Notes under the pieces: model-generated
Told to the model about the DNA's origin: nothing
Databases searched by the model: none
Seen by the model: the letters and a program-made list of their open reading frames with translations, nothing else
In this document: positions 19,701-46,755 of the stretch, one piece after another
Position numbering within the stretch: position 1 is the stretch's first letter
Layout of the letters: each line of letters starts with the position of its first letter
Made by a program: the position numbers and the translations under genes
Source of the DNA: Planctomycetota bacterium
Lineage (GTDB): Bacteria > Planctomycetota > UBA1135 > GCA-002686595
Direction: 5' to 3'
Length of the DNA: 46,755 bases
NCBI GenBank assembly: GCA_021730845.1
Contig: JAKFYL010000065.1
Location: 1 to 46,755 of the forward strand

Positions 19701-21941
19701 CTCTACATCCGTGACGAGGGCCACGCGCGCGTGCAAGCCCTCGAAAAGATCGTGGGACAAAAGCGTGTTGTCGGGGACGCGCTCGGTCAGCGCCGCCGCG
19801 AACGCATCCACGTCGTACAAGCCCTTACCTGTGAAGATGCCTTCGCCGAACAGATCCTGATAGGTGTCGGAGATGGCCGTGGTGTATGGATCAACGCCGG
19901 TGTGACCGGCGTAGATGCGCGCAAACAAGGACCCCGCAGCGCTCGCTGTGGTCACACTTACGCGCGGCTGCAGGATCCCATAGCCAGATGTAACTCGCTG
20001 CCGGATCGTGTCGAATCGGGGTCGATTCAACGGGTGGAGCGCAATGCCAATGAGTTTGCGGGCAGCGTCGCGCGGCAGGTGGGTATCGGAGTCGAGGGTG
20101 ATGCAGTAGCGCACCTTGGGCAAAACTTCCAGGTTTCCGACTTGTACGGTGTAGCTCGTGTCGGTGGCGCCTCGCAGCAACCGATTGAGCTCCTCGAGTT
20201 TGCCACGCTTGCGCTCCCAACCCATCCAGACACCCTCGCTTGGATTCCACGCGCGGTCTCGATGCAGCAGGAAGAAGCGGTCGCCGCGGCCATCGCTCAG
20301 GCGTGCATTCAGGCGCTCGATGCCAGCCTGGGCAGAGGCCAAGATCTCTGCGTCGCCTGGTAGCACTCGCTCTGAAGCATCCAAGTGATCTCCCAGGATC
20401 GCGAAATGGATGTAGGGATCGAGATTTCCCAGGGCCAATACGTGCAAGTGCTCAATCAGACTTTCGACTCCATCCAAGCTGGAGAGCAGAGTTGGCACCA
20501 CGACTAGGGTGCGCGCCTCGGCCGGGATGCCGCCCTCCAGATCCAAGCGAGGCAGCCGTTTGGGCCGCACCAGCCCGGCCAGCGCGCGCTGAATGCCCTG
20601 GATGGCTAGTTCACTGGCCGGTAACACAAGGAGCAGCGCGGTGAAAACCTGCATCACCCCGCGTGCTCCAGTGTGCTCGGCATACGCGATGCCGACGCTC
20701 ATGAGCAGCCCCGTCGCTAGCACGATGGCGCCAAGATAGAGCGCCGTTGCGTGGGCAAAGGCCTGGCGCTTGAGTGTGCGCACCAGCCCGGGGCGCCAAG
20801 CCAAGACGGCCTCCAGGTCACCTCGTCCTGCGCCAATGAGGTGATGACCTACATGCGCAGAGAGTGCGGCGGGACCATCACGTTCGGCACACAAACGTGC
20901 GCTCCCGATAGCACGCATCGCCACGCGCACTTGCTCCTCGCCGGTCTTCTCGGCCAACATTTCGACCGCTTGCCGATAGCGATCGCGTGTCAAGAAGTCC
21001 ATAGTTCCATAAGCGTTCGCCGGATCGCGCTGTAGCACGCGCTCCACCAAACTCACGGACTCGACAAACGTGGCCCAATCCAAGTCGGAGCACAGCCGCA
21101 AGCTTGCAATGGCGTTGGCTATCGACACCTGCACGGTCGCTTGGCGCTGGTGTTCTCTGCGGATCACCTCCTCGAGCGTGAGGCCATTGTTTGCACAATG
21201 CACTTCGATGTCGCGCAAGGTGCCGGCCATCCGTGGTCCGTATTCGCGGGCACGCTGCAGTAGCTGCACGACCATGGGTGGACGCACGTCGCCGGACAGC
21301 TTCAAGTGCATGCTCTTCGTGCGGTCCGCATGGGCTATCCAATCGTTGGCTGTGCGGCGCCCCAGGCGTGCGTCCTGGATTTCATCGGCCAAGCGCCTTA
21401 CGTTTTCTATGAGTGCCAGCTTGAGCATGCTCGGCCATGCCCAAAGCTCCCCGATCGTTAACGGAGTGACGGTCTGAAAACTGTCGATGAAACGTGTCAA
21501 CTGCTGGCGATCCAGCCGGCTGTCGCTGTGCCGGATCACCTCGACTGCAAGTGCATACACGCGTGCCTGGCCGTCCATTTCGCGTGCCGCCATTTTGGGG
21601 AGCTCACGGTAGTAGTCGCCTGGTAGGTCTTGGCGCACGCTCTGGAATTGGGATTCAATCAACGGAAAATTGTCGAGAACCCACTCCGCAGCAGCCGTGA
21701 TAAATTCACCGTGGTGCACGTCGTTGGATAGTTCCTTGTAGACCGTGCGAAGCAAGCGGACGTTGTCCTCTAGGCGCGCAAAGGCGCCGCGTCCGATTTC
21801 GGCCGTTGACGTCACCGTGAACCGCGCAGCCAGTGCCCGCGCACGCTCTTCCAGGCGTTCGACACTCAGCAGCTCGTCGCGAAAGGGTGCGGCACGAACC
21901 ACGGGCCTACGAAACCCAACAAACTTAGTCATTCCAAGCAT
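13716..21941 (-). CDS. ndvB: Cyclic beta-1,2-glucan synthase (GT84 + GH94), 2741 residues
   Basis: A giant inner-membrane enzyme that polymerises glucose from UDP-glucose into beta-1,2-glucan and closes the ring; the product acts in the periplasm in osmotic adaptation. An N-terminal helical region ends in membrane helices near 395-455. The GT84 glycosyltransferase (about 470-800) has DSDTHLP (near 617), [15 protein letters not shown] and the R-x-x-RW motif [11 protein letters not shown] (near 765). More membrane helices lie near 820-990, followed by a glucoamylase-like domain (about 1020-1400). Two GH94-type regions follow, the second with the catalytic-type motif [12 protein letters not shown] near 2415. 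The length matches known NdvB/ChvB proteins (about 2800). ATGs at 21941 and 21932 are both possible, with GGAGAG just upstream. It appears monocistronic. Confidence 0.96.
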
Positions 21942-32731: not shown

Positions 32732-35431
32732 CTAAGGAATCTGCTGGATTTCCAGGTCTTTCCAGCTCATTTCCGTCTTGGCGCCCAGGCTTTGCAGCAC
32801 GATGGCCCCCAAGTTGTGCGAGCGCGCCGGGTCCAGCGCGTCGTTGACTACCACGTCGTTGAGACGCACCACCAAACGTGTGCCGCCAGCTTCTTCCGTG
32901 CAGCGCACGGCCACCGTGAACCACAGATCCGGCTCCATCAACTGAGTGCCGAGCGCGGACAGTCCGCGCAGGCTGCCAGTTTTTTCACGGCTCGTGCCCG
33001 TGTGATTGAGCACCAGTTCGTAGCCGGGTGCCTGCTCCGGCGGCGCGTTGGAGCGCAGGAACACCGATCCCTCGCCGCCGCCGTTGAGTCGGCAACGACC
33101 GCGGAACTCGAATTGGCGATAATCCGTTCGAGCGCTCAGCAAACGACCGGCTCCACGAGCGACGATGACTCCGTCTTCGACCGTCCAGGGGTCCGATCCA
33201 GTGATCGAACCGGACTGCGCTAGCCAACCGGCAAGCGTGCTGCCGTCGAACAGCCTGACCCAACCCTGATTGGGATCACCGGGCAGGGCGCGCGGCTCGC
33301 GCAGACGCATGGTCAGGTCTTGAATCGCAATCTGGCCGCGACCGCCCTGCAACACCAAGGGCCCTTGCGGCTGCTCGCCCGTCAAGGGCGCTCCCGCGGT
33401 GGGCCCGGTGAGTTCGACCTCTTCTTGCATGAGCGTGTCGTCGATGAGCACGCGCAAGAATCGCGCGTTTGCCGTCTTGCGGCCGCTGGCATCGAAGCGC
33501 GGCGCGCAAAAGCGCACGCTCAAGCCGTGCCACTCCCCGGGCCCGCGGTAGGCTCCAAACACCGGCGCACGAGCCGCAAAGCTTCCGTCCGCTGCCGCCG
33601 CCAAAGCGCCACTGTCGTGCACGGACGCCTGAGCGCCGGGCGCTGCATGCTGATCGCGCAACTCGATTTCGTAGCGGCCCATCAAGAACAGTCCCGAGTC
33701 GCTGCCTTCGGGAAGCATGAAACGGAGCGAAAGATCGATGTCCCCAAACTCCATGCGCGAGGTCAAATCGTCCGGAGCCGGTGAACCCGCGTTGGAAAGC
33801 GTGCGCCCTTCGTGTGGCCGTCGATCGACTTCCTCTTCGGCAGTGCGCACGAGTTGTCCGGCGGCGCCCAAATCGATGGTGACTCCTCCTCGCGCCCAAC
33901 CCTGACCGGACCAGATCTTCAACGGCTCGTCCTGGGTCAGCAACAGCATGCCTTCGCCACCCGACTCGCGCGGCCGAGGCATGGAGTAGGGCTTGGCAAC
34001 AGGGACGACGGTAGGGTCGTCTGCCAAGCGCCTTACGGTGTAGGCCAGTTCATTCTGCACCAGCACTTCGCCTTGCGCGCTGCGCAGACCGTCGAACCGC
34101 AAGCGTGCGACCTTGCCGGCTGTCAGGCTGCGCACGAAAACTTTGGCGCTGCGGCAGTCCTTTGCGAGTTCGATGGACTCGACGGCCCGCGGCGCAATGT
34201 TTCGCAGCGGCGAACCATATTCCCACCAATATTCGTAGTCGTACTGGTGCACTCGAACTTTTTCGGCTACCAGTCCGCTGGGGTCGATGGGTTTGGTGAA
34301 ACTGATCGCAAATCCTCCCGGCACTAGGCGCGTCGATTGGATCTCGAACGGGGTCTGGCCGCTCCAGCGCATGCGTGCGACGCCGTCGCCGGGGGCTTGC
34401 CCGCCCCAGCCGCGATCAGTGAGTCCGCAAAACAGGCTTCCATCCGCGGCGAATCGCACCCGAATGGCCGAGCCCACCCCGCGGCGGAATGGGTAGACGA
34501 CGCCTTGGGTTACGCCACCGAAGTCCTCGAGCTCGGCGCGCAGGATCATGCCGTTGGTCATTTCGGCAAGGAACAACTGCCCAGCAAAGGGTCCGAACTT
34601 TCCGTCGCTGGTGTCGCTAGCCATGTCGCCGGTGGAGCGCGACCAGTCATAGGGAATCCAAATCGCTGCGTCGTCGCGGGCCTGCTTCGGAGCCATAGTT
34701 CCACTAGGAAGCCGCTTCTCGCGTTGGAACTCCTCGGTCCAGCGCAAGGAAGCTGGATGACCGTGGAAGGTCCCCTCGCGCGCATGGAACAGCCCACAAG
34801 CTGCCATCCAATCGCCCTGGTTGTCGGTCACGAGCAAACGGCCAGTGCTATCGCGGCCGATGCCGCACGGGCTGCGAAACCCGGAGGCAAAAGGATGCAC
34901 GGCGCCCTTGGGGTCGACGCGCAGCACCCAGCCGCGGTAGGGCACGGGCGAGACGCCCATCCACCAGGGATCTCCGAAGGCCACGTTCAGGGACACATAC
35001 CAGTTGCCTTGTTCGTCGCGCGGCAAGCCGAAGGCGAACTCGTGGTAGTTGCCGGAAAGCCCCCAGTCATTGGTTAGAGTTTGCACGCGATCACACTGGC
35101 CGTCCGAATCGTCGTCGCACAAGAGCGAAATCTCGCCGCGCTGCAGCACATAGATGGAGTTGCCCTCCACCGCCAGGCCCAATCCCTCTTGCAGTCCTTC
35201 GGCGAAGAGTCTCGGCATCGCGCTCGAGATGTCCGCGGTCAGGGGATCGCGGTAGATCCAAACTTGACCGCGGCGCGTGCTTACCACCAGTGCACCGTCG
35301 GGCAAGAAGCCCAGGCCACCAACCTCCAGGCGCTCACCGGGCGGAGACGGCAGATGCTCCACCGTGTATCCATCGACCTCCGACTGGAACAGCGCCATCA
35401 GGCTCGCGCCCACTACTAGAAAGCCGCTCAC
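32732..35431 (-). CDS. Sorbosone-dehydrogenase-like beta-propeller fused to DUF1080 domain
   Basis: An 899-residue exported protein with a short N-terminal signal (MSGFLVVGASLMALFQS). Residues about 20-370 form a six-bladed propeller of the PQQ-dehydrogenase/L-sorbosone-dehydrogenase type (GGLGFLPDGALVVSTRRGQV, GNYHEFAFGLPRDEQGNWYV, ASGFRSPCGIGRDSTGRLLV). A beta-rich linker region follows. The C-terminus (about 700-899) is a DUF1080/3-keto-disaccharide-hydrolase-like lectin fold (WVRLFDGSTLAGW, WTVEDGVIVARGAG, then EGSVFLRSN); a related partial copy lies near 570-680 (FGDIDLSLRFMLPEGSDSGL). Such combinations are common in Planctomycetota. Its start overlaps the stop codon of the monoheme cytochrome (ATGA), so the cytochrome probably accepts its electrons if it is a dehydrogenase; the substrate is probably a sugar, but this is inference. 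Confidence 0.85.
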   Translation of the reverse strand: MSGFLVVGASLMALFQSEVDGYTVEHLPSPPGERLEVGGLGFLPDGALVVSTRRGQVWIYRDPLTADISSAMPRLFAEGLQEGLGLAVEGNSIYVLQRGEISLLCDDDSDGQCDRVQTLTNDWGLSGNYHEFAFGLPRDEQGNWYVSLNVAFGDPWWMGVSPVPYRGWVLRVDPKGAVHPFASGFRSPCGIGRDSTGRLLVTDNQGDWMAACGLFHAREGTFHGHPASLRWTEEFQREKRLPSGTMAPKQARDDAAIWIPYDWSRSTGDMASDTSDGKFGPFAGQLFLAEMTNGMILRAELEDFGGVTQGVVYPFRRGVGSAIRVRFAADGSLFCGLTDRGWGGQAPGDGVARMRWSGQTPFEIQSTRLVPGGFAISFTKPIDPSGLVAEKVRVHQYDYEYWWEYGSPLRNIAPRAVESIELAKDCRSAKVFVRSLTAGKVARLRFDGLRSAQGEVLVQNELAYTVRRLADDPTVVPVAKPYSMPRPRESGGEGMLLLTQDEPLKIWSGQGWARGGVTIDLGAAGQLVRTAEEEVDRRPHEGRTLSNAGSPAPDDLTSRMEFGDIDLSLRFMLPEGSDSGLFLMGRYEIELRDQHAAPGAQASVHDSGALAAAADGSFAARAPVFGAYRGPGEWHGLSVRFCAPRFDASGRKTANARFLRVLIDDTLMQEEVELTGPTAGAPLTGEQPQGPLVLQGGRGQIAIQDLTMRLREPRALPGDPNQGWVRLFDGSTLAGWLAQSGSITGSDPWTVEDGVIVARGAGRLLSARTDYRQFEFRGRCRLNGGGEGSVFLRSNAPPEQAPGYELVLNHTGTSREKTGSLRGLSALGTQLMEPDLWFTVAVRCTEEAGGTRLVVRLNDVVVNDALDPARSHNLGAIVLQSLGAKTEMSWKDLEIQQIP

Positions 35432-37026
35432 AGGCCAAACTCCGCCAGGACGCGCTCCAGACCTGCCTCATCCGATGCCGCCGCGGGTGCAAACACAAGC
35501 CGCAGCTTGGCGGCAGACGCGTTCGAGCACGCCACGCGCACCGAGGCCGTACCACTTGGATCCAGACCGCAACTGAGCGCTCCTTCGATGACCAGCAGTG
35601 CGTACTGATCGGGAGCTACTCTTGCCCACCACGCAGTCAACGAGTTTGGCCCCTCCTGGGCCTCCGTCCCTATGTCCCCAAGCGCGCCAGCGCTCTTTGG
35701 CTGCGAACGAGAACCCACATGGTGATCTCCTGCTGGAAGCTTGGCTGCCAAGACAGTGACAATGGACGACGCGCTCGTGGCTTGAATCGTCAGCCGCCGT
35801 TCGATGGCGGTTCCTGTGGACAGCGCGATGGCCGACAGGTCTTCGCGGACCTGCGCGATGGTCTTGTGCTGGGGATCCAGCAGTTCGTAGGCAAGACCAG
35901 CCTCTTCCCCGCGGGCCCAGGTGTCCTGGATGCGCGCACCGGCCTTGAATTGCTGCCCGTCTTGACTGACATGGAACGCGGCACTTGCCCCGCCGGCCTC
36001 GTAGTGGTGAACCAGTGTTCCTAGCGGACGAAGGTAGCTGCCGCCGCGGCCATCCCAGTCTTCACGCTTGGCGAACGCCCCTAGGCGCGCAGCGATGGGC
36101 CGCACGTCGTCGAGCGCGTATTCCATACTCAGGCCGCCGGGAAAACCGAGCAAGAGCCCGCGCACGACTTCAGGTCCGTCTTCGACGACCGGCGGCAGCT
36201 TGCCGCGCGCCATGGCGCAGTGCCCCCGCACGACGAGCTGGGCACTGTCGCCGGACTCGTTCTCGGTCAACGGCATGAGCGTGCGCACGTAGTCAACGAC
36301 CAACCAACGCTCCTCTTCCGTCAACGAACCGGCGTAGGCGGGCATGACCGAGCGTCCTGGAAGCCCGGAGGAAATGGTGCGAAATAGCGCCTCGCGCGTG
36401 TTGCCAAAAGCAAAACCGCCGGCAGCGAAATCGCGCGCCACAACTTTGAGTTGCTTGGCCGTTTCGCCGTCACCCTTGCCGGTCAGGCCGTGGCAGCCAG
36501 CACAATTGCGCGCGTACAGGTACTTTCCATCGCGCGGTTCTTCGGGCTCCTCCACTTGCGTGGGTTGGACGGACGCCAGCACGCTGCCGCTCTTCGAGCG
36601 CTCGGCGCCGGCCGCGTTCACGCGCTTGCCGACAAAGCGTTCCAGCTCGGAGTCGGTTGCGACGGGCGTATCTTCGGTCGGAACTTTGCTAGGTACAGCG
36701 CGTATCTCTGGTTCGGGGGCGGTTTGCGCTGGCGCCGCTTGGCCCTTTGGCAGCACGAATCCCTCGATCCCCTTGGGCTTGGCCGGGACGGGCGCGGCTT
36801 GCGCAGGCGCCGACGCGGGCTCAGTTGCCTTCGGCACACCCTCCGCGGCTGCGACTGGCTTTGCCGTGCCGGCGACGGTCGATGCGGCGCCCTTGGAGGA
36901 GTTCGCCGAAACCTTGGTTCGCAGCGGATTGGATAGCGGCGGCGCGCAAGCCGCCGTGCAAACCGCCGCGAAACATACTCCCAACCACACGCCACGCGAA
37001 AGGTTCGTTTCCACAGGTGCGTCCAA
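35428..37026 (-). CDS. Monoheme cytochrome c lipoprotein
   Basis: A 532-residue protein with signal peptide and lipobox (GVWLGVCFAAVCTAACAPP), so lipid-anchored. A Pro/Ala-rich low-complexity linker occupies about residues 35-165. One class-I cytochrome c domain lies at about 170-255, with CXXCH in YARNCAGCHGLTGKGDGETA and distal Met in GRSVMPAYAGSLTEEER, ending WLVVDYVRTLMP. The C-terminal half (about 260-532) is beta-rich and contains repeated GRGG and acidic stretches; no family is recognised, though such regions in cytochromes sometimes bind a partner dehydrogenase. It is translationally coupled (4-base overlap) to the propeller/DUF1080 gene and follows the 11-heme cytochrome gene by 66 bases. 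It is probably the electron carrier linking the two. Confidence 0.88.
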   Translation of the reverse strand: MDAPVETNLSRGVWLGVCFAAVCTAACAPPLSNPLRTKVSANSSKGAASTVAGTAKPVAAAEGVPKATEPASAPAQAAPVPAKPKGIEGFVLPKGQAAPAQTAPEPEIRAVPSKVPTEDTPVATDSELERFVGKRVNAAGAERSKSGSVLASVQPTQVEEPEEPRDGKYLYARNCAGCHGLTGKGDGETAKQLKVVARDFAAGGFAFGNTREALFRTISSGLPGRSVMPAYAGSLTEEERWLVVDYVRTLMPLTENESGDSAQLVVRGHCAMARGKLPPVVEDGPEVVRGLLLGFPGGLSMEYALDDVRPIAARLGAFAKREDWDGRGGSYLRPLGTLVHHYEAGGASAAFHVSQDGQQFKAGARIQDTWARGEEAGLAYELLDPQHKTIAQVREDLSAIALSTGTAIERRLTIQATSASSIVTVLAAKLPAGDHHVGSRSQPKSAGALGDIGTEAQEGPNSLTAWWARVAPDQYALLVIEGALSCGLDPSGTASVRVACSNASAAKLRLVFAPAAASDEAGLERVLAEFGL

Positions 37027-37092: not shown

Positions 37093-39879
37093 TCAGGGTC
37101 CAATGTAGGTCGAAGCGTTGCCGCGTGGCGCGCCGTTGGCGTCGATCCACGAATCCAGCACGATTCCGTTCACTGGGTCGGCCAGTTTTTGGATCAAAGT
37201 CGCGCCCAAAGGACCGGCCATTTCCGGATCCAGCGCGCCGTCGCGCAGGCTCGGCCCGACTGCGGCATCGAGCCAAGTGTGGTTGTTGGAACCGTTGGCT
37301 ACGCCGCTAGGTTCGACCACGCGGTCCAAGTTGAGCGTGACGTTGGCCGGGTTGAAGGCACTCGCCGGCGCCACGCCGTCGCATCCGATGCGATTGGCAT
37401 TGGTATCAAGCGGATTCACGGGCTTGCCGTCCTGATCGAACAGGAACAGTCCCGTGCCTAGGCCAGCGACCATGTGGGCCCACAGCGGCGAATCCATTTG
37501 GTTGCCGGTGTTCTGACCAAAGTGCGTCTTGAGCAACTGGAAATCCAAGGCTCCGAAGTTTCCGCTGGCCATGTTCGTGCGGAACGCGTTGTACTGCGCA
37601 CCGAACGATGCCAGAGCACTGTCGGTCAGGTGGCAAGTCGAGCAGTACCGCGGTCCCTCGGTCGTGGGCTGCACCTTGCCTCGAATCGAGTGCGCCATGA
37701 TCGAGTTGTGACTCAATGACGGGAACGCAGCCGGAGGGGCGTTGCCAATTCCCTTGCGATCCGTGAAAGCAAACACCTTGGAGAGCACTCCGTTCTGGTC
37801 CTCGAAACGATAGAAGACCTTGGTGTTCGCGCTGAACTGCGTGATCTTGCCGCGCGTGTTGACGCCCAATTGGAAGAACAGTGGTGACTGGTACGTGAAG
37901 TCCGCCGTCCTTTGCTTGTAGACGATGCGCTCGCCCGTGATGTTGCTGAAGTTGTTGCCGGTGTTGTACTCGCCGGACAAGTGGCAACCCATGCAGGTGT
38001 TGGTCCACGAACCGTGACAGGCAACGCAGTCCATGCGGTCGGTGTGGCTGAATCCTGCAGTAACACCGCCGGTTTGCAGCGGGCCCATGCCGTTGGTCGC
38101 ATCCGCGTCGACCCGCCCCATGGCGTAGCTGGCCTTGGCGGTGTAGATCGGTTGGTTGGTTGTCGGATGCAACTTGCCGGTGTTTGAAACCGTGTCCTTG
38201 ACTTGGGGAATGTAGTGTGTCGCCCCAGTCAACCGGCTCTTCAAGAAGTACTCGCCCGCACCGTTCTTGGTGACGTGCTTGAGCTGGTTGCCTTCGGCAT
38301 CGACCGCGACCTGGGCCGCCGTTCCGGCGTAGGTGGTGCCTGCCTGAGTCGACGCATAGGCTTCGATCGTGCCGTGGCAGCTCTCGCAGCGGATGGCGAC
38401 TTGCTGCTCCATGCGGCTGGCGATGTCGGGATTGGATCCGCCCGTCGTCCCACCCCCGTGCAAGTCCCAACTGCCGTGGCAGTCGATGCAGCCCATCCCT
38501 GCTTCGTAGTGTACGTCGGCAGGCGTGTCGTCTCGACCGTCGCCGTCGTAGTCCTCCTCGAGGATGTACTGGTTGTGATTGCGGCCATTGAACGTGTGGT
38601 TGTCCACGACCGGATCGAACAGGCGCTCGTCGCCGAACGTGGTCTTGAAAGTCACCGGGTTGGCCGGGTACTGCAAGTGGTTCTTCACGTCGGCGTTCTG
38701 GTCCAAACGCAGGCCCCAGTACTGCATGACCGTACGGTTGGAACCCTGGTGACAACCCGCACAGGCGTAGTCATCGATACCTTTGATGACCTCGCCGCTG
38801 GGCAGCGTCTTGTTCACGCTGGAAATCTTGTGCGAGCGCGGGTGGGAACGCTCCGGATCGTCGATGTCGTCCGGATCCACGGGCTCGAGCTTGTTGATAT
38901 TCGGGTCCGAGCTTCCCGAGCGTCCACCCAAGCTGTACTGCATGTGGCACGCGGTGCAGCCCGATGAGCGGAAGTCGCCCGCGCGGTTGTTGGCACCGGC
39001 GCTGCCCAAGTGGCAGTCACCGCAGGTGAAAGAGATTTGCTCGGCGAACAGTTTGGCGAGCGGTGAACCGTTGATCAGCGAGTTGTCGGCATTGACGTCG
39101 TCGACCAGAGCGCCCGCGAGGAAATCGGGGTTGTTGAACAGGTTGCCAGGGAGCGTAACCCCGAAAACGCTGTAGACCGGCATTTCCACCAATTGTGCGA
39201 CCGCCCCGACGGCCGCATTGGCCAGGTTGAAGTTGTTGTCCACCACGGCCCGGTGCGAGAAATCGCCAGCCGTGTCCTCGTACAGCCCGGCGTTGCCGGG
39301 TAGTGAGTTGTCTACCCCTGCGGCGAACAGCGCGCCCGAAAAAATGCCTGATTCGGTTGCGAGCAGGCTGCTGCTCACGGACTCGGCGTGGTTGGAATGG
39401 CATTGCCCACAACCCTCACCCTTGCTGACGACGCGCACGTCACCCGGGTTGATGAAGCGCAAGTAGTCGAGCGCCGTGTAGTTCTTGTTGCCAACTTGGT
39501 AATCCGGGAACTTGTCGATGCCGGCCAGCGTCAGACGGTTGAAGTAGGCCTTGGCGTTGTTGTCCTGGAACGCGTCGTCGCCAATTTCGGGCGGCGGCGG
39601 TACGTGGGCTGTGAGAACGTCATCCGCGTTCGGATTTCCCCCGTGGCAGGTCGAGCACATGATATTGGCGGCACCGGGGAAGGGGTGCGGATTCTCGATG
39701 CCTGGCCCCTTGTAGTCGTTCTTCAGACTGCCGTTGTGGCACAGCATGCAAGACTCGGCTTGCTGCGTTTGCAGACTGCCTGTTTCGCCGCTGCAAGAAG
39801 CGAACACGCCCAGGCCCCCAAGGAGCGCAAGGGCGATGGTGCGCAAGGCACCGTCCACTCTGGTTTGGATCTGGTTCAC
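37093..39879 (-). CDS. 11-heme cytochrome c lipoprotein
   Basis: A large exported cytochrome of about 928 residues with eleven CXXCH motifs: CMLCH, CSTCH, CGQCH, CGDCH, CTACH, CAGCH, CIDCH, CESCH, CVACH, CMGCH and CSTCH. They are spread from the N-terminus to about residue 770. The signal peptide ends in a lipobox (LALLGGLGVFASCSG), so it is lipid-anchored, possibly at the outer membrane or cell surface. The open frame extends to 40047. GTG 39879 gives a normal signal peptide with AGGAG 10 bases upstream; GTG 39918 has a stronger GGGGGAG and is the main alternative. No named multiheme family is recognised. It lies downstream of the barrel and 7-heme genes, suggesting it accepts electrons carried across the outer membrane. 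Confidence 0.9.
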   Translation of the reverse strand: MNQIQTRVDGALRTIALALLGGLGVFASCSGETGSLQTQQAESCMLCHNGSLKNDYKGPGIENPHPFPGAANIMCSTCHGGNPNADDVLTAHVPPPPEIGDDAFQDNNAKAYFNRLTLAGIDKFPDYQVGNKNYTALDYLRFINPGDVRVVSKGEGCGQCHSNHAESVSSSLLATESGIFSGALFAAGVDNSLPGNAGLYEDTAGDFSHRAVVDNNFNLANAAVGAVAQLVEMPVYSVFGVTLPGNLFNNPDFLAGALVDDVNADNSLINGSPLAKLFAEQISFTCGDCHLGSAGANNRAGDFRSSGCTACHMQYSLGGRSGSSDPNINKLEPVDPDDIDDPERSHPRSHKISSVNKTLPSGEVIKGIDDYACAGCHQGSNRTVMQYWGLRLDQNADVKNHLQYPANPVTFKTTFGDERLFDPVVDNHTFNGRNHNQYILEEDYDGDGRDDTPADVHYEAGMGCIDCHGSWDLHGGGTTGGSNPDIASRMEQQVAIRCESCHGTIEAYASTQAGTTYAGTAAQVAVDAEGNQLKHVTKNGAGEYFLKSRLTGATHYIPQVKDTVSNTGKLHPTTNQPIYTAKASYAMGRVDADATNGMGPLQTGGVTAGFSHTDRMDCVACHGSWTNTCMGCHLSGEYNTGNNFSNITGERIVYKQRTADFTYQSPLFFQLGVNTRGKITQFSANTKVFYRFEDQNGVLSKVFAFTDRKGIGNAPPAAFPSLSHNSIMAHSIRGKVQPTTEGPRYCSTCHLTDSALASFGAQYNAFRTNMASGNFGALDFQLLKTHFGQNTGNQMDSPLWAHMVAGLGTGLFLFDQDGKPVNPLDTNANRIGCDGVAPASAFNPANVTLNLDRVVEPSGVANGSNNHTWLDAAVGPSLRDGALDPEMAGPLGATLIQKLADPVNGIVLDSWIDANGAPRGNASTYIGP

Positions 39880-40102: not shown

Positions 40103-40759
40103 CTACAAGTTTTGCTCGGCCTGCTGCCAGGTGCGGGGTATGTGACATCGGTCGCAGCGATCGACCCATCCCAAGTTGAGGTGGTTGGGATTGTTGGCGT
40201 TGGCCAGATCGGCTCGATGGCACGTTACGCACTCGGTATCCACGGGTGTGAACTTGCCGACTTCCGCCCCGACGTGGCAGCGCCTGCAGGCGGTCGAGGC
40301 GTGCACCCCGATCAATGGGAAGCGCGTGCGCTGATGCATGGCGATTTGCCCGACCGGTTGCCAGGTTTGCTCTTGGTGGCAATCCTCGCAGCGTGAGCCC
40401 AGTTGCCCGGCATGGATGTCTTCGTGACACCCGCCACAGCCGCGCTGCGCAAACGTCGCCACGGGGCCGCGATCGTTGTGGCAGCGCAAGCAACTGGCCT
40501 GCGTGTGCGCGCCATTCAAAGGCACGCCGGTTTCGGCCAGGTGATCGAAGTGGAAGTCTTCGGAAAGCGTTTGCCAGCCGGATCCCACGTGGCACAGCGA
40601 GCAATCGCCGGGAAACGTTCCGTGCGGCAGGACAGGGCCAAGACCGCCCCACCACAGATGCTGTTTGACCGACTTGGAACCACCGGTCACGCACGCCGCA
40701 ACCAGCAGCAGGAAGGCCAGCACCGCTAGCGCTCGGCCCGAGAGCACGTCTTTGCGCAT
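40103..40759 (-). CDS. 7-heme cytochrome c lipoprotein
   Basis: A 218-residue exported cytochrome with seven CXXCH motifs (CSLCH, CLRCH, CGGCH, CEDCH, CRRCH, CVTCH, CDRCH), about one heme per 30 residues. Extra histidines follow between motifs, as in cytochrome c3 / doubled-CXXCH families. The N-terminus MRKDVLSGRALAVLAFLLLV with AAC forms a lipobox, so it is lipid-anchored. The start lies 3 bases after the barrel gene's stop codon, indicating coupled translation. By analogy with porin-cytochrome systems, a small multiheme protein encoded next to the barrel could sit in its pore or at its periplasmic mouth; this is inference. Confidence 0.92.
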   Translation of the reverse strand: MRKDVLSGRALAVLAFLLLVAACVTGGSKSVKQHLWWGGLGPVLPHGTFPGDCSLCHVGSGWQTLSEDFHFDHLAETGVPLNGAHTQASCLRCHNDRGPVATFAQRGCGGCHEDIHAGQLGSRCEDCHQEQTWQPVGQIAMHQRTRFPLIGVHASTACRRCHVGAEVGKFTPVDTECVTCHRADLANANNPNHLNLGWVDRCDRCHIPRTWQQAEQNL

Positions 40760-40762
40760 GGG

Positions 40763-42511
40763 TCAAAAGCTCCTTTGGAGGTACACGCCGAGCGCGACCG
40801 AGTTCTCGTCGTCCCAGAATCCCAATTCGACGTTGCCCGAAAAACTCCAGCCGGACTGGGTCTGATAGTCCCGGTTCAGGCGCAGGCGGTGTTGCGGAAT
40901 GTCGTTGTTGTTGTCCGAAAACGTGTCGATCTGATTGGCCGCGAATTCGTAGTCCAGCGCCCAACGCCCTTGAGGCGCGTTCCAGCTCAACGACAGCCGG
41001 CCACCCAGCGAGTCCGAGTGTCGTCCATTCGCTCCAAAAATGGACAGGTCGGTGACGCTTTGCTGGAAAATGAAGTTGCGCTGCTCCCAACCCACTTCCC
41101 CGTCGGCACCTTCCTCGTCTTCGTCAGCCCACACTCCCAACGCAGCGCGCCAACGAGAATCGGCGCTTGCTTGGCTGCGCAAACGCACGGCCAAGCGATC
41201 ATTGTGGTCATCGGCCAGTTGATCGTCTTCGACCGGCAAGAATTCTTCGCGATCGATTTCCGGGAATTCCATGTGGCTGTAGATGAAATCCAGCGTGGCA
41301 CCGTCCTCGGAGCGCGTGCCGGACGTCAAATAGGCTTGGGTGAGATCCACGCCGCTGCCTTTTTCTTCGTCACCACTGGTGTAGTAGTCGACCCAGACCG
41401 TGCCCGAAAAATTCCAGCCCTTGGGCGGCAAGTAAGCCAGCTTGCCGACCGCCAAGTCGCGATCGGCATTGGAATTGTGAAAGGTCTTTTGGAAACCCGC
41501 GGCGGCGGACAATTGCTCGCTAGCGTCCGCGATCCAGCGGTAGTAGGTCGAAACCTGGAAGTCCTGGAGGGATTCGAAACTCTTGTCGGGCTCCGGCATC
41601 CAGCCAATGCTGGCGCCGTAGGAATCGCCGCTGGGCAGTCGACGGCCCCACTCGAAGCCATCGATGACGCCGAACTCGCTCATGCCGCGACTGAGAAAGC
41701 GCCCGAATTCCAAGCGATCTGGCGCAAAGCGTGTGCCACCCAAGGAGTAGGAAATGCGCTCAGGGCGCAAGCGCCCTTGGCTCTCGTCGTCATCGTCGGG
41801 AACTTCCGTGCGGCGCACGTTGATTTCCCCTTCGAGGTGCAGCGCGTCGCCGATGCCGGTCAGGTTCTCGTACTCCACGTCCGCTCCCAAGCGGAAGAAG
41901 CCGTCTTTGCGGTCGTCCTCGCTGCTCCAGATTTGGTCGGCAATGAAATAGGTCCGCCCGGTGACGGACGGTGGGCGTTCTTCCGGCCGCACGGGTTGCA
42001 CTTTGGCCAGCAGCGGCTGGTTGGGCGTGAATTCGCTGTCCTGGTTGGTCCAGGTGGGCTGTTCGCGTGCCTCTTGCGCGTTCGTCTCGGTCGCTTGGAC
42101 AGGCGACTCTTCGGCCGGTTTGACTGCCGGTGCTTCGAAGCGATCCGCGGAGACTTGGGCCATGCCGCGCGTGCCCGGTCCAGGCAAGAATCCGGGATCG
42201 ACGAGTTCAACCAAGGATGATCGGTCTAGCGCTTCGCTGATCGTTCCCGCAAAGGTGCCGCCTTCCCGCGGCAGGAAGAACACGCGATCGCCGCTGCGCA
42301 GGCCGTCGGCTGTACCGCGATCGATGTTCACGAAATTGCCGCGTGCGGATGTGACCCGGAATTCGACCTTCTCGGGGTCGCCCGCGGAGCGGACCTCTTG
42401 ACTGGAGACCTGTTCCTCTTGCGCGGGCGCCGGCTCTTGGACATCCGCGCTTTGAGCCCAGGCCGAACCGGCGCAGGCCAAAGCGGCCGCGGCCAGCGCG
42501 ATGAAAGCCAT
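40763..42511 (-). CDS. Large outer-membrane beta-barrel with an N-terminal SH3-like domain
   Basis: A 582-residue protein with a clear signal peptide (MAFIALAAAALACAGSAWAQ). A short beta-domain lies at about 45-130 (FVNIDRGTADGLRSGDRVFF), resembling the SH3-like repeat of periplasmic adaptor domains. About 400 residues of alternating amphipathic strands with acidic loops follow (WIADASEQLSAAAGFQKTFH, GWNFSGTVWVDYYTSGDEEK), ending in aromatic Phe (LGVYLQRSF), the usual outer-membrane barrel terminus. The frame is open far upstream, but the preceding gene's stop at 42541 and the signal peptide fix the start near 42511 (or GTG 42523). Placed between 23-heme and 7-heme cytochrome genes, it is the candidate porin of an outer-membrane electron conduit. 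No MtrB/PioB-type motif was recognised. Confidence 0.85.
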   Translation of the reverse strand: MAFIALAAAALACAGSAWAQSADVQEPAPAQEEQVSSQEVRSAGDPEKVEFRVTSARGNFVNIDRGTADGLRSGDRVFFLPREGGTFAGTISEALDRSSLVELVDPGFLPGPGTRGMAQVSADRFEAPAVKPAEESPVQATETNAQEAREQPTWTNQDSEFTPNQPLLAKVQPVRPEERPPSVTGRTYFIADQIWSSEDDRKDGFFRLGADVEYENLTGIGDALHLEGEINVRRTEVPDDDDESQGRLRPERISYSLGGTRFAPDRLEFGRFLSRGMSEFGVIDGFEWGRRLPSGDSYGASIGWMPEPDKSFESLQDFQVSTYYRWIADASEQLSAAAGFQKTFHNSNADRDLAVGKLAYLPPKGWNFSGTVWVDYYTSGDEEKGSGVDLTQAYLTSGTRSEDGATLDFIYSHMEFPEIDREEFLPVEDDQLADDHNDRLAVRLRSQASADSRWRAALGVWADEDEEGADGEVGWEQRNFIFQQSVTDLSIFGANGRHSDSLGGRLSLSWNAPQGRWALDYEFAANQIDTFSDNNNDIPQHRLRLNRDYQTQSGWSFSGNVELGFWDDENSVALGVYLQRSF

Positions 42512-42540: not shown

Positions 42541-44655
42541 CTATCTGTTGCGCGGCTTGCGCCGCAAAAACACGTCCTCCTCGACTCCGTGACAATCTAC
42601 GCATTCCGTGCCCATCGGCTTGTATCGGATGAACTGCAGTCCGCGCTCTACGACGGGCAGGTGGCAGGCGGAGCAGGCAACGTCCTTGTGGGCCTCTCCG
42701 AGCCGAAATCGGGAGTCGCGCTCGTGGTTGAAGCGCAGAAAGTTCGCCGTTTCGTCCGTGTGGCAACGGGCACAGTCAGTTTTTCCACCCAGTTCGAACT
42801 GGCGGCCATGGGGTTCGGCGTGGCAATCCGCGCAGGCCTGCCCCTTGGCGCGCTCCCAGGTTCGGCCAGCGGCCGCGGGACGCGCAAGGGGCGTGTGACA
42901 GGCGTTGCACGCGGCGGTGCCGTGCGCCCCTGCCAAGGTGAAGCCGGTCCACGCGCCGTGGTCGAAGCCCTGATCCAGTGTCCGGAACGACACTTCGTTG
43001 TGACAGCGCGCACAATCCGAGCGCGAACCCACCGCGGCCGGCAGTGCGGCCAAGTCGAAAGCGCCACCGTGGGGATCCGCGTGGCAAGTCACGCAGCCTT
43101 GGTATTCACCGAAGTGCTCGGACACCTTGCCGAAGGTCCGGCCGGCTTCGTCGGGTTCCGGGGCCAGCGGGTGGCAGACTTGGCAGCCTTCCGCCTCGTG
43201 GGCACCCTTGACGGCGAATCCGGTCCAGCGCCCATGATCGAAATCGTCAGGACTGACGGCGTCGAACGACTCGGTTTGGTGGCAACGCGCGCACTCGCCG
43301 TGCTCGGGTGTCGGCACGCCCGCGGCGAAGGGCGCGAAAAAACCGCCGTGGGCGTCCTGATGGCAACTGTCGCAGTTGCTGGGGGTGCCGTGGAATACAC
43401 GCGGCTGGTTGGCCGGCGGATCCTGGTGGCATTCGTTGCACTCGATCCGGGCGTGCTCGCCGGTCAGAGGCAACTCCGTCCGTTCGTGCTTGGCTAGATC
43501 GAACTCGTGCGGCAAGAAATGCTCGTCCGCGTGGCAAGCGCTGCAATCTCCCGCTCCCGCGGGCACCAGCGCCCGCGAGCGCGGCGTCAATGGCGGGAGC
43601 GCAAACGGGCCGCGCTCGAACTGGCCCAGGTGAGGATCCAGGTGGCACTGCGCGCATAGCCCTTGTTCGCGACCCGGATAGCGCGCCAGGAATTCTTCCG
43701 TCGCGGGGTCGTGGCACTTTGCGCACTCGACTTGGTCGTGGGGCGGGTCGAGGTCGAAACCGGAGGCCGAGTGCCAGCGCGGTTCCAGCTTCAGACGTTC
43801 GTCGCGAAAACTGATGTGGTCGGCCGCATGGCAGGTCACGCATGCCCCGGGGGCCGCGAGCGATTCCATGCGCGCGACTTCGTCCACGAAGTCGGTCTGG
43901 TGAGGAGATGCGTGGCAGTCGACGCAAGTCCTGGGGCTGGGCTTGCCCTTGCGCAGAGTCATGGCCTCCAAGGAAAAGCGCGAGTCCTTGGCGTGACAGT
44001 CACGGCATCCAACATCTGCGTGGCCGCCGATCAACGGCAGGTGTCGGTCGTGGTCCAGCGACTGCAATTGGTCAAAGGACTCCTGCCCGTGGCAACTGGC
44101 GCAACTGGAGGCCATCTGGCCTTCGTGCGGGTCTTCATGGCACGTCGCGCAATTGGAATCCAGTCCCAAGAAGCGCTGCGCGCCTTTGGGTAGCAATTCG
44201 ACGTCCGCGTTCTCGTGGCACTCCGCGCATTTGAGTTCCAGGTGCTTGCCATCCATCTTCCAGCCCAGCAATTCGTGATCGAAGTGCTCGGGATCCGGAA
44301 TGCCGGCACGCGCGAAGCTCAGCCGGTTGACGATCGCAAACCCGGTGCCGTGGTGTTCGCTGTGGCACGTGGCACAGGACTCGGCCAATGTGCGTTCGAC
44401 CTTTCCGTGCAACCCGGTACCCGCTTCGATTTGCTCCTCGATGGGCTCGTGGCACGCCAAACACGACGAAGTCATGCTCGAAAACCAACCGCCGTGGCAC
44501 TCCGAGCAGCTTTTCTTGGAACCCAGTGCCTCTTCGCGGCCGTGCACTGTGGTCAACGGACCCGGTGAAGTGCGCTCCATGTCCACCGCTGCGACCAGCG
44601 CAACGATGGTTATGGAAATGAAGGCGATGCCGGCCTGAGTTCGCCCGAACTTCAT
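42541..44655 (-). CDS. 23-heme cytochrome c with N-terminal membrane anchor
   Basis: A 704-residue multiheme cytochrome with 23 CXXCH motifs that I counted one by one, from CSECH near residue 50 to CVDCH near 690, about one per 31 residues. Many motifs are followed by HxxPHxGxF-type patterns (CHEDPHEGQ, CHLDPHLGQF, CHADPHGGAF), typical of cytochrome c3-like tandem modules, which suggests repeated internal duplication. The N-terminus MKFGRTQAGIAFISITIVAL is a single membrane helix without a clear cleavage site, so it is probably anchored in the inner membrane facing the periplasm. Its start overlaps the stop codon of the ferredoxin/FAD/cytochrome-b gene by 4 bases (ATGA). Role inferred: a molecular wire carrying electrons from that oxidoreductase across the periplasm. 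Confidence 0.94.
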   Translation of the reverse strand: MKFGRTQAGIAFISITIVALVAAVDMERTSPGPLTTVHGREEALGSKKSCSECHGGWFSSMTSSCLACHEPIEEQIEAGTGLHGKVERTLAESCATCHSEHHGTGFAIVNRLSFARAGIPDPEHFDHELLGWKMDGKHLELKCAECHENADVELLPKGAQRFLGLDSNCATCHEDPHEGQMASSCASCHGQESFDQLQSLDHDRHLPLIGGHADVGCRDCHAKDSRFSLEAMTLRKGKPSPRTCVDCHASPHQTDFVDEVARMESLAAPGACVTCHAADHISFRDERLKLEPRWHSASGFDLDPPHDQVECAKCHDPATEEFLARYPGREQGLCAQCHLDPHLGQFERGPFALPPLTPRSRALVPAGAGDCSACHADEHFLPHEFDLAKHERTELPLTGEHARIECNECHQDPPANQPRVFHGTPSNCDSCHQDAHGGFFAPFAAGVPTPEHGECARCHQTESFDAVSPDDFDHGRWTGFAVKGAHEAEGCQVCHPLAPEPDEAGRTFGKVSEHFGEYQGCVTCHADPHGGAFDLAALPAAVGSRSDCARCHNEVSFRTLDQGFDHGAWTGFTLAGAHGTAACNACHTPLARPAAAGRTWERAKGQACADCHAEPHGRQFELGGKTDCARCHTDETANFLRFNHERDSRFRLGEAHKDVACSACHLPVVERGLQFIRYKPMGTECVDCHGVEEDVFLRRKPRNR

Positions 44656-46755
44656 GGACGACCTCCTCGACCGAGGACGCCGCCATAGGTAAGGGCGTAG
44701 AGCACGTGCAAGCCGATGAGCACGAGCATCAGCACGGCGAGCCAGCGGTGCAGGTAGCGCCAGGTGTTCAGGATCGCGCGCAGATCCTCTAGGTGCGAGG
44801 CTGCCAGGCCCGTGCGGTAGGCCTGTTTGGCCATGAGCAAGGTTTCCGCGAGCTCCGCTGGCGGCACATCATGTTGTGTGCCCATGCCGTGGATCGACTT
44901 GAGCGCCATGCGCAAGCGCCGCTCGCCCGAGTACAGCGCGCGCACTCGCCCGAGGAAAGTAGCCTGCCACTGGATGGACTCGATCAGTTTCTCGATCTCG
45001 CGCCGCGCCAGCTCGACGAACTTCCAGTTGGACTTGTCCAACTGCTCTAGTTGCCCATGCAGCCGCAGCTTGAGTTCTTCCAACTCCAATTCGCGGCCAT
45101 TGGCGGCGCGTGGCAAACGCGCGTAGAAGTACCGGCCGATCGCGCCCGTGACCAGCAAGACGCCCATGAGCCAAAGCGCGTGCCCCCCGACCGTGTGGCG
45201 CGGCGACATGGCCGAGTGCAGGAGCGCGACCAAGAAGGCCATGATTCCAGTGCCGATGTGGCTGGTCATCCAAGCCCCGAGCGAACCGAGCTGGAAACCC
45301 AGCCAGCGCGCACGGCGCACCAGATAAAGCAAGTTGACGAAGACCAGCGCGAGCGACGCGATACCCAGACCCAGCCCGACATTGCGACCCGGACGCAGCA
45401 GCTCGTGCTTGTCCAAGGACGGACGGATTTCGTTCGGAAGCCAGTAGTAGTCAGAGTGCCAGGCCGCGAAAATCAACGCCGACAAAGACATCAACAGCGC
45501 GACGGCCAACGCTTGGGTGATTCCCGTGCCTTGTTCGATCAGGGGCTCCGATTTGGGCCTGAGATTGGGATCGAAGGACACGCCCGAATCGGATAGCAAC
45601 TGGAAGGGCGTGATACCCCCGGCCATGACGAATACTTCGTCGTTGGGAATTCGCTCGCGTCGCGCGGAGTCCCCATCCGCGATTTCTAGATCCACGGACT
45701 CCGGGTCGACCGCCAGCAACTGGCTCTTGGTAAGCACGCGCAGCTTTCCTGCGGCGACGCTCGCTTGCAAGTTGGCTTCGTTGCGCGCGCGCAAACGGGT
45801 GAAATGCTCTCGTCGGTAGCTGAGCGTGACTTCGTTGCCGGGTTGTTCGGCGAGCCCGAGCGCCGTTTCCACGGCGCTGTCCCCGCCGCCGACGACCAGC
45901 ACGCGCCTGTTCTGGTAGGAGTGTGCGTCGATCAAGCTGTAGGAGACCTTGGCCAGTCCTTCCCCGGATACGCCCAACTTGCGCGGCGATCCACGCCGCC
46001 CCAAAGCTAGGCAGACGTTGCTGGCTTCGATCACTCCGGCCGAGGTTTGCACAGCGAACCCGCCGCCTTCCAAACGCTGCACGCCCTGGAACGAAACGCC
46101 GCCGTGGATGGGAAGCTGCTGCTCTTGGGCTACTTGCTCCCACAGCTGGATCAGTTCCTCTTTTTCGTAGCTCGTGCGCTTGAGCTGGCCATGCAAAGGC
46201 AGCTCGACCGGCTGCGTGACGACCAGCTTGCGGCGCGGATACTTGGCGACCGAGCCGCCCAGACGCTCCTCCTGATCGATCGTCACGAAGTGCAGGCCAG
46301 CGCGCTTGGCTTCTAGGGAACACGCGAGCCCCGCAGGCCCTGCACCCACTACACACAGGTCATAGCGCTGGCTGTCGCGAGCGCCGTCCGCTCGACTGCC
46401 GGCCGTGAGCGCCGCGACTTTCTGCGCGACAGCAGTACCCTGATCGATGGCGCTCTTGATCAAGGCATGCGCCGTAATCTCGCCGGCTAGGAACAAGCCC
46501 GGCGAGCCGACGGCTTCCAAGCCATCGGATAGTACAGGGACATCTTGGCGCTTGGCGAGGTTGGAAATCGTGACCGTGATCGCACCCGCCGGACACTCGC
46601 GCTCGCAAGCCGCGTGGCCCACGCAACGCGCGCCATTCACGACCATGGCCTGGCCGTGCACGAGTTGCAGCACGCCATCTTCGGGGCAGGCCGTAACGCA
46701 CGTGCCGCAGCCCAAGCAGCGCGATAGGTCGACGACCGGGTGGTGGAGAACGGAT
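44652..46755 (-). CDS. Ferredoxin / FAD-NAD(P) oxidoreductase / cytochrome b fusion (N-terminus beyond window)
   Basis: At least 700 residues; the frame is still open at the right edge, so the true start lies outside. In order there is a 4Fe-4S motif CLGCGTCVTACP and a second cluster motif CVGHAACERECP with His in place of one Cys. Next is a segment SPGLFLAGEITAHALIKSAI like the FAD-closing motif of thioredoxin-reductase folds. A FAD Rossmann motif (VVGAGPAGLACSLEAKRAGL) and a second nucleotide-binding motif (VLVVGGGDSAVETALGLAE) follow. The C-terminal third has membrane helices with paired histidines (SHIGTGIMAFLVALLH, YLHRWLAVLMLVLIGLHVLY), as in b-type heme domains. It likely takes electrons from NAD(P)H or ferredoxin and passes them through heme b to the 23-heme cytochrome, whose gene overlaps its stop codon. 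Confidence 0.88.
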   Translation of the reverse strand, partial: SVLHHPVVDLSRCLGCGTCVTACPEDGVLQLVHGQAMVVNGARCVGHAACERECPAGAITVTISNLAKRQDVPVLSDGLEAVGSPGLFLAGEITAHALIKSAIDQGTAVAQKVAALTAGSRADGARDSQRYDLCVVGAGPAGLACSLEAKRAGLHFVTIDQEERLGGSVAKYPRRKLVVTQPVELPLHGQLKRTSYEKEELIQLWEQVAQEQQLPIHGGVSFQGVQRLEGGGFAVQTSAGVIEASNVCLALGRRGSPRKLGVSGEGLAKVSYSLIDAHSYQNRRVLVVGGGDSAVETALGLAEQPGNEVTLSYRREHFTRLRARNEANLQASVAAGKLRVLTKSQLLAVDPESVDLEIADGDSARRERIPNDEVFVMAGGITPFQLLSDSGVSFDPNLRPKSEPLIEQGTGITQALAVALLMSLSALIFAAWHSDYYWLPNEIRPSLDKHELLRPGRNVGLGLGIASLALVFVNLLYLVRRARWLGFQLGSLGAWMTSHIGTGIMAFLVALLHSAMSPRHTVGGHALWLMGVLLVTGAIGRYFYARLPRAANGRELELEELKLRLHGQLEQLDKSNWKFVELARREIEKLIESIQWQATFLGRVRALYSGERRLRMALKSIHGMGTQHDVPPAELAETLLMAKQAYRTGLAASHLEDLRAILNTWRYLHRWLAVLMLVLIGLHVLYALTYGGVLGRGGRP

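Follow-up and report, generated by a model that had tools for sequence, protein, structure and literature searches.

The window, a stretch of 46,755 nucleotides from a Planctomycetota bacterium (contig JAKFYL010000065.1), carries near its end an operon on the reverse strand, in the order flavoprotein-b fusion, 23-heme cytochrome (CYT23), outer-membrane barrel, 7-heme cytochrome (CYT7) and 11-heme cytochrome (CYT11). CYT23 (42541..44655, (-)) is a predicted periplasmic c-type cytochrome of 704 residues and 76.7 kDa, or 3.34 kDa per heme. Its ATG start is preceded by a GAGGAGG ribosome-binding site, and the gene overlaps the stop of the upstream flavoprotein gene by 4 bases. In agreement with the original prediction, direct motif counting gives exactly 23 CXXCH in the reading frame, whereas shuffled sequences of the same composition contain 0.23 on average and at most 3. 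CX3-4CH and CXXCK variants were not found in a motif scan of the same frame. All 46 cysteines (46/46) belong to heme motifs, and the protein contains 55 histidines in total.

Repeat structure of the 23-heme cytochrome

The CXXCH motifs are 15–49 residues apart and average one heme per 30.6 residues, close to the spacing of about 31 first reported. CH-x-DPH-like elements are found at hemes 5, 8, 11, 14, 17 and 20, that is, at every third heme, which identifies the real repeat as a three-heme unit of ~75–100 residues. Self-alignment, one of the checks suggested with the original prediction, defines a layout of 2 + 7x3 hemes: behind a two-heme N-terminal cap follow seven consecutive three-heme units (hemes 3–23; 42544..44376, (-)) that are 20–46% identical among themselves. 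The linear repetition originally described as CH-x-DPH-x-G modules is thus real, with a unit of three hemes instead of one. By sequence the units are cytochrome-c7-like. The second suggested check, a profile search, returned the Pfam model Cytochrome_C7 (PF14522) at 105 bits (cut-off 24.8) and related c3/MtrC-type models, and scores below cut-off for the DmsE/MtrA model TIGR03508 (54.3 bits, cut-off 192.2) and for the HmcA model NF045713 (34.8 bits, cut-off 400).

A single N-terminal hydrophobic helix covers residues 6–27 (44575..44640, (-)); it is helical in the AlphaFold2 (AF2) model, and the N-termini of orthologues lack a clear AxA site. In Planctomycetota this helix is probably an uncleaved inner-membrane anchor, in line with the single-helix anchor of the original prediction. 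This does not extend to the homologues of a third phylum (see below), whose N-termini resemble ordinary cleavable signal peptides; judged by these sequences, the anchor is lineage-specific.

Conservation and heme ligation

No characterised cytochrome with this heme number and anchor had been recognised at first. We dropped the treatment of CYT23 as an orphan: matches occur in 27 of 41 relatives at E <= 1e-3 and in 52 of 392 genomes of the phylum at E <= 1e-20, numerous genomes from the same family, order and phylum encode orthologues with 48–57% identity over the full length, and the gene is part of a conserved operon resembling the porin-cytochrome cluster PCC3. Seven of eight 16S genes from relatives match the PLA46 signature with 0–1 mismatches, which makes Planctomycetota almost certain as the phylum. 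In an alignment of 31 Planctomycetota homologues all 23 CXXCH motifs are kept, a single motif being absent from a single row (30/31). Exactly 23 further histidines are conserved, 22 of them in every row and one in 97% of rows, and only two methionines are conserved in the whole protein. One partner histidine for each of the 23 CXXCH motifs points to bis-His ligation throughout, and all 23 hemes are probably coordinated in this manner.

Homologues with the same heme number exist outside the Planctomycetota. The cultured bacterium Emticicia oligotrophica DSM 17448 (Bacteroidota) encodes on its plasmid pEMTOL02, which carries the entire cluster, a 635-residue protein, 28% identical to CYT23, with 23 CXXCH motifs. 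The Emticicia protein is in turn matched at E <= 1e-25 in 39 of 188 genomes of a third phylum, that of a metagenome-assembled genome deposited as Deltaproteobacteria, which we guess to be Myxococcota. Among ten regions from this phylum, six encode a separate 23-heme protein, two encode it fused to a 13-heme cytochrome, and two have a single frame with 30 CXXCH. An alignment of 13 sequences spanning the three phyla keeps every one of the 23 CXXCH motifs and 20 of 23 partner histidines invariant, at identities of 28–56% (28–33% to the Bacteroidota and third-phylum proteins). The heme number does deviate in some relatives (27 in L003).

Organization of the operon

The order flavoprotein, CYT23, barrel is found in 20 of 20 regions compared. 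CYT7 comes next in 19 of them (in the other the contig ends), and CYT11 is present in every region of this type (type 1) that is not cut by a contig end. The same genomes contain a second, paralogous set (type 2), whose periplasmic cytochrome has 26 hemes, exactly one three-heme unit more. Paralogous clusters from the phylum (L039, L040, L041, L042, L043 and L045) combine this 26-heme cytochrome (23 hemes in L045) with a single outer lipoprotein cytochrome of 15–37 hemes, with the CYT7 module as its N-terminus. Trees of CYT23 and of the flavoprotein separate type 1 from type 2, with weak support elsewhere. In L043, L044 and similar loci the flavoprotein and CYT23 seemed at first to be fused in a single frame; this was rejected, since the flavoprotein lies in a different frame.

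The predicted inner-membrane flavoprotein and b module

Upstream of CYT23 lies an oxidoreductase with two [4Fe-4S] clusters and FAD/NAD(P) domains (Pfam Fer4_10, Pyr_redox_3), fused to a five-helix membrane module (44652..46755, (-)). About 45 N-terminal residues fall beyond the contig end; L037:6658-8892 is a complete orthologue. The FAD and NAD(P) folds are nearest to YpdA, thioredoxin reductases and ferredoxin-NADP reductases, and two ferredoxin-type cluster motifs are present. The second of these (46593-46625, residues 44–54) has only three conserved cysteines, C44, C50 and C54; its usual second cysteine is often a histidine (CxGHxxCxxxCP), also in Emticicia and in the third phylum. The N-terminal helix of the L037 orthologue is followed by basic residues, and this places the FAD part tentatively in the cytoplasm.

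The C-terminal cytochrome-b-like module of five helices (44655..45542, (-)) is homologous to a separate 281-residue Emticicia protein. It bears the motif WX3HX13H twice, as WMTSHIGTGIMAFLVALLH on the third helix (45216..45272, (-)) and as WRYLHRWLAVLMLVLIGLH on the fifth (44706..44762, (-)), and in both the tryptophan and the two histidines are present in 21 of 21 aligned rows. It is a predicted di-heme b module. Helix 4 reads TGAIG in the window and has SG or TG in homologues, at the place of the PCC3 motif SGXXG.

The arrangement of the two parts varies between lineages. Emticicia encodes them in two neighbouring genes, as a b module of 281 residues and a flavoprotein of 440; in Planctomycetota they are fused in the order FeS-FAD-b, and in the third phylum in the order b-FeS-FAD (L076, L077, L078, L082, L084). 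That fusions exist in both orders is most readily accounted for if the two parts belong to one electron path. Sphingobium plasmids combine a b module of this kind and a 7-heme cytochrome with a neighbouring NAD(P)H reductase of a different type, FNR. The iron-sulfur domain could trade electrons with ferredoxin, so that NAD(P)H as the donor is read from the fold only.

Predicted outer-membrane components

The gene downstream of CYT23 (40763..42511, (-), ATG at 42511) encodes a signal peptide and a predicted outer-membrane beta-barrel. Its AF2 model (pLDDT 79.4, pTM 0.66) has a small N-terminal beta domain and 22 long strands in residues 185–584, and matches ushers, OprD/Occ porins and TonB-dependent transporters in the PDB (best Z 17.1 over 277 residues). 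The modelled fold informs on location and says nothing of function.

CYT7 (40103..40759, (-)) is a predicted lipoprotein cytochrome with 7 CXXCH and exactly 7 other invariant histidines; its hemes all look bis-His. CYT11 (37093..39858, (-)), also a predicted lipoprotein (lipobox FASC), starts at GTG 39858 or upstream and has 11 CXXCH, 14 other invariant histidines, ~90 residues per heme and, on the longest frame, 9.5 kDa per heme. A published survey ties such peptide-rich cytochromes to catalysis (PMC7096707), and the high peptide mass per heme makes CYT11 a candidate surface reductase. A weak likeness to ExtM (82 of 800 bits) was not used to assign function.

Comparison with known cytochrome systems

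PCC3 was first proposed from iron oxidisers (Sideroxydans, Leptothrix and others) as a route of electron uptake (PMC5566968), and its periplasmic cytochromes, with 21–27 hemes, have already been suggested to span the periplasm (PMC5566968, PMC10734462). Compared by published description, PCC3 shares with the present operon a barrel and a large periplasmic multiheme cytochrome, as well as a five-helix inner-membrane protein whose helices 3 and 5 carry WX3HX13H, a trait of PCC3 and PCC4. As candidates for the extracellular multiheme cytochrome of PCC3 the operon has the predicted lipoproteins CYT7 and CYT11. The 23 hemes of CYT23 are within the PCC3 range, and the barrel and the paired inner-membrane motif are both found in the cluster. 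The system therefore appears to be a variant of the putative PCC3-type conduit that had been proposed before. Unlike PCC3, its inner-membrane module is fused to the 2x[4Fe-4S]/FAD/NAD(P) protein, the periplasmic cytochrome has 23 hemes (26 in the paralogues), two outer cytochromes are predicted lipoproteins, and the hosts are Planctomycetota, Bacteroidota and the third phylum. We found no description in the open-access literature of the flavoprotein fusion, of the fixed number of 23 hemes or of the cluster in these phyla.

The closest solved relative by profile is the dodecaheme cytochrome GSU1996 (PDB 3OV0, E 3.6e-9), likewise a single periplasmic polypeptide of linear three-heme c7-like units. 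GSU1996, however, has 12 hemes, one of them His-Met-ligated in each unit, whereas CYT23 has 23 invariant histidines outside its CXXCH motifs, does not show the His-Met pattern and is apparently bis-His at all 23 hemes; it also has the N-terminal helix and an operon that leads to the outer membrane. MtrCAB, MtoAB and PioAB similarly combine periplasmic cytochrome, barrel and surface cytochrome across the outer membrane, and CYT23 matches the Mtr-complex chain 6R2Q_A weakly by profile (E 2.7e-7); MtrA, in contrast, is a decaheme protein, and these systems have no flavoprotein-b fusion. HmcA of sulfate reducers resembles CYT23 as a multi-c3 periplasmic cytochrome tied to an inner-membrane complex, but has 16 hemes and no barrel.

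Could CYT23 reach across the periplasm? The AF2 model, built without hemes (pLDDT 73.5, pTM 0.40), has little secondary structure, which made structure searches uninformative: Foldseek against the PDB gave no useful match, and VIA-align returned the Mtr-complex chain alone (Z 2.2 over 81 residues). Edwards et al. estimated that ~200 Å needs ~27 hemes (PMC7096707). The same scaling gives ~170 Å for 23 hemes, somewhat short of 200 Å, and it is plausible that CYT23 bridges most of a periplasm. In GSU1996 the hemes lie 3–5 Å apart edge to edge (PMC10138318).

A putative electron conduit from cytoplasm to cell surface

Taken together, CYT23 is probably the periplasmic section of a PCC3-like conduit that would span the cell envelope and carry electrons from NAD(P)H to the cell surface. 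In the proposed mechanism, the FAD domain would oxidise NAD(P)H in the cytoplasm and pass electrons through the two iron-sulfur clusters to the two b hemes, which would lead them across the inner membrane to heme 1 of CYT23, adjoining the membrane. The 23 bis-His hemes, if close-packed, would then conduct electrons to the outer membrane, from where the 7-heme lipoprotein would receive them by a path through the 22-strand barrel or alongside it. As the last stage, the 11-heme lipoprotein (or the 15–37-heme one of the paralogous clusters) would reduce an extracellular acceptor, for example metal oxide or humic material. More tentatively, at a confidence clearly below even, the operon may encode a complete circuit from cytoplasm to surface, driven by NAD(P)H and independent of quinones, with the 23-heme protein as a ruler of fixed length that bridges both membranes, keeps its heme number in at least three phyla and is lengthened by whole three-heme units.

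Two-heme b modules are often quinone-active, which lends some weight to a second reading, that the module draws on the quinone pool, with the wire unchanged and the flavoprotein as an accessory. He et al. suggested that the inner-membrane protein of PCC3 is active with quinones (PMC5566968). Against this reading stand the two fusion orders of flavoprotein and b module and, in Sphingobium, a b module with a second, unrelated type of NAD(P)H reductase as its neighbour; we regard a quinol-fed conduit as unlikely.

In which direction would electrons flow? Heme chains of this kind are in principle reversible, and the conduit could take up electrons from Fe(II) or a different extracellular donor and deliver them to the inner membrane, the role for which PCC3 was proposed in iron oxidisers (PMC5566968). 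The source genome encodes heme-copper oxidases, which would suit such uptake. RuBisCO, however, was absent from the 41 genomes searched, and this absence together with the oxidases gives no sign of autotrophy, so that export fits better than autotrophic iron oxidation. Furthermore, to reduce NAD(P)+ through a b-heme wire, electrons from a high-potential donor would have to move against the redox gradient and the membrane potential alike, and in Sideroxydans ES-1 both PCC3 clusters are down-regulated with Fe(II) (PMC8788666). Uptake thus seems rather improbable; the cytoplasmic NAD(P)H-type flavoprotein, the RuBisCO-less relatives and the Fe(II)-repressed ES-1 genes favour export but do not prove it.

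It is very unlikely that CYT23 mainly stores electrons without bridging the membranes, a capacitor role suggested for the Geobacter proteins GSU1996, its closest solved relative (PMC10138318), and GSU2210 (27 hemes), because the operon with barrel and lipoprotein cytochromes is fixed, the number of 23 hemes is held in three phyla, which storage alone would not need, and in L076:9483-12389 and L082:8157-11366 the 23-heme and 13-heme cytochromes form one polypeptide with 36 CXXCH. For a conduit directed to the surface, this fusion places the two cytochromes in series, and it possibly reaches from the periplasm to the outside.

PCC3-type conduits are known from genomes and expression data only, and their electron source has been a guess. 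With flavoprotein-b fusions in both orders and a cultured carrier in Emticicia oligotrophica DSM 17448, a possible feed from NAD(P)H without quinones becomes directly testable. If the proposal is true, one periplasm-bridging protein with 23 hemes across phyla would explain how electrons cross the periplasm in these bacteria, and Planctomycetota that are widespread and show no sign of autotrophy would join the groups with extracellular electron transfer.

Neighboring genes

In four of five regions tested (L028:14254-15171, L036:14060-14785, L037:5841-6629 and L046:6475-7218), the flavoprotein gene is immediately preceded by a DUF2959 gene (PF11172); a counterpart at the window locus would fall past the contig end. 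Directly before the Emticicia plasmid cluster is a CcsA-type cytochrome c assembly gene (L057:8655-11741), and the plasmid may therefore carry its own heme-attachment factor. Cytochrome c assembly genes were also found in the source genome. On a Sphingobium yanoikuyae plasmid (L058:5366-8723), an FNR/2Fe-2S reductase, an HX13H b module and the 7-heme cytochrome form one operon; here and on related plasmids copper-related genes are nearby, and the 7-heme cytochrome occurs on ~30 plasmids, mostly of sphingomonads. Downstream of the operon in the window, and outside the conserved cluster, 32732-37026 encodes two proteins, a PVC-type one of 899 residues with a 3-keto-disaccharide hydrolase domain and a monoheme cytochrome protein of 532 residues. 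Elsewhere in the window, 13716-21941 encodes a protein of 2741 residues with glycosyltransferase, glucoamylase-like and GH94 domains that resembles cyclic beta-glucan synthase.
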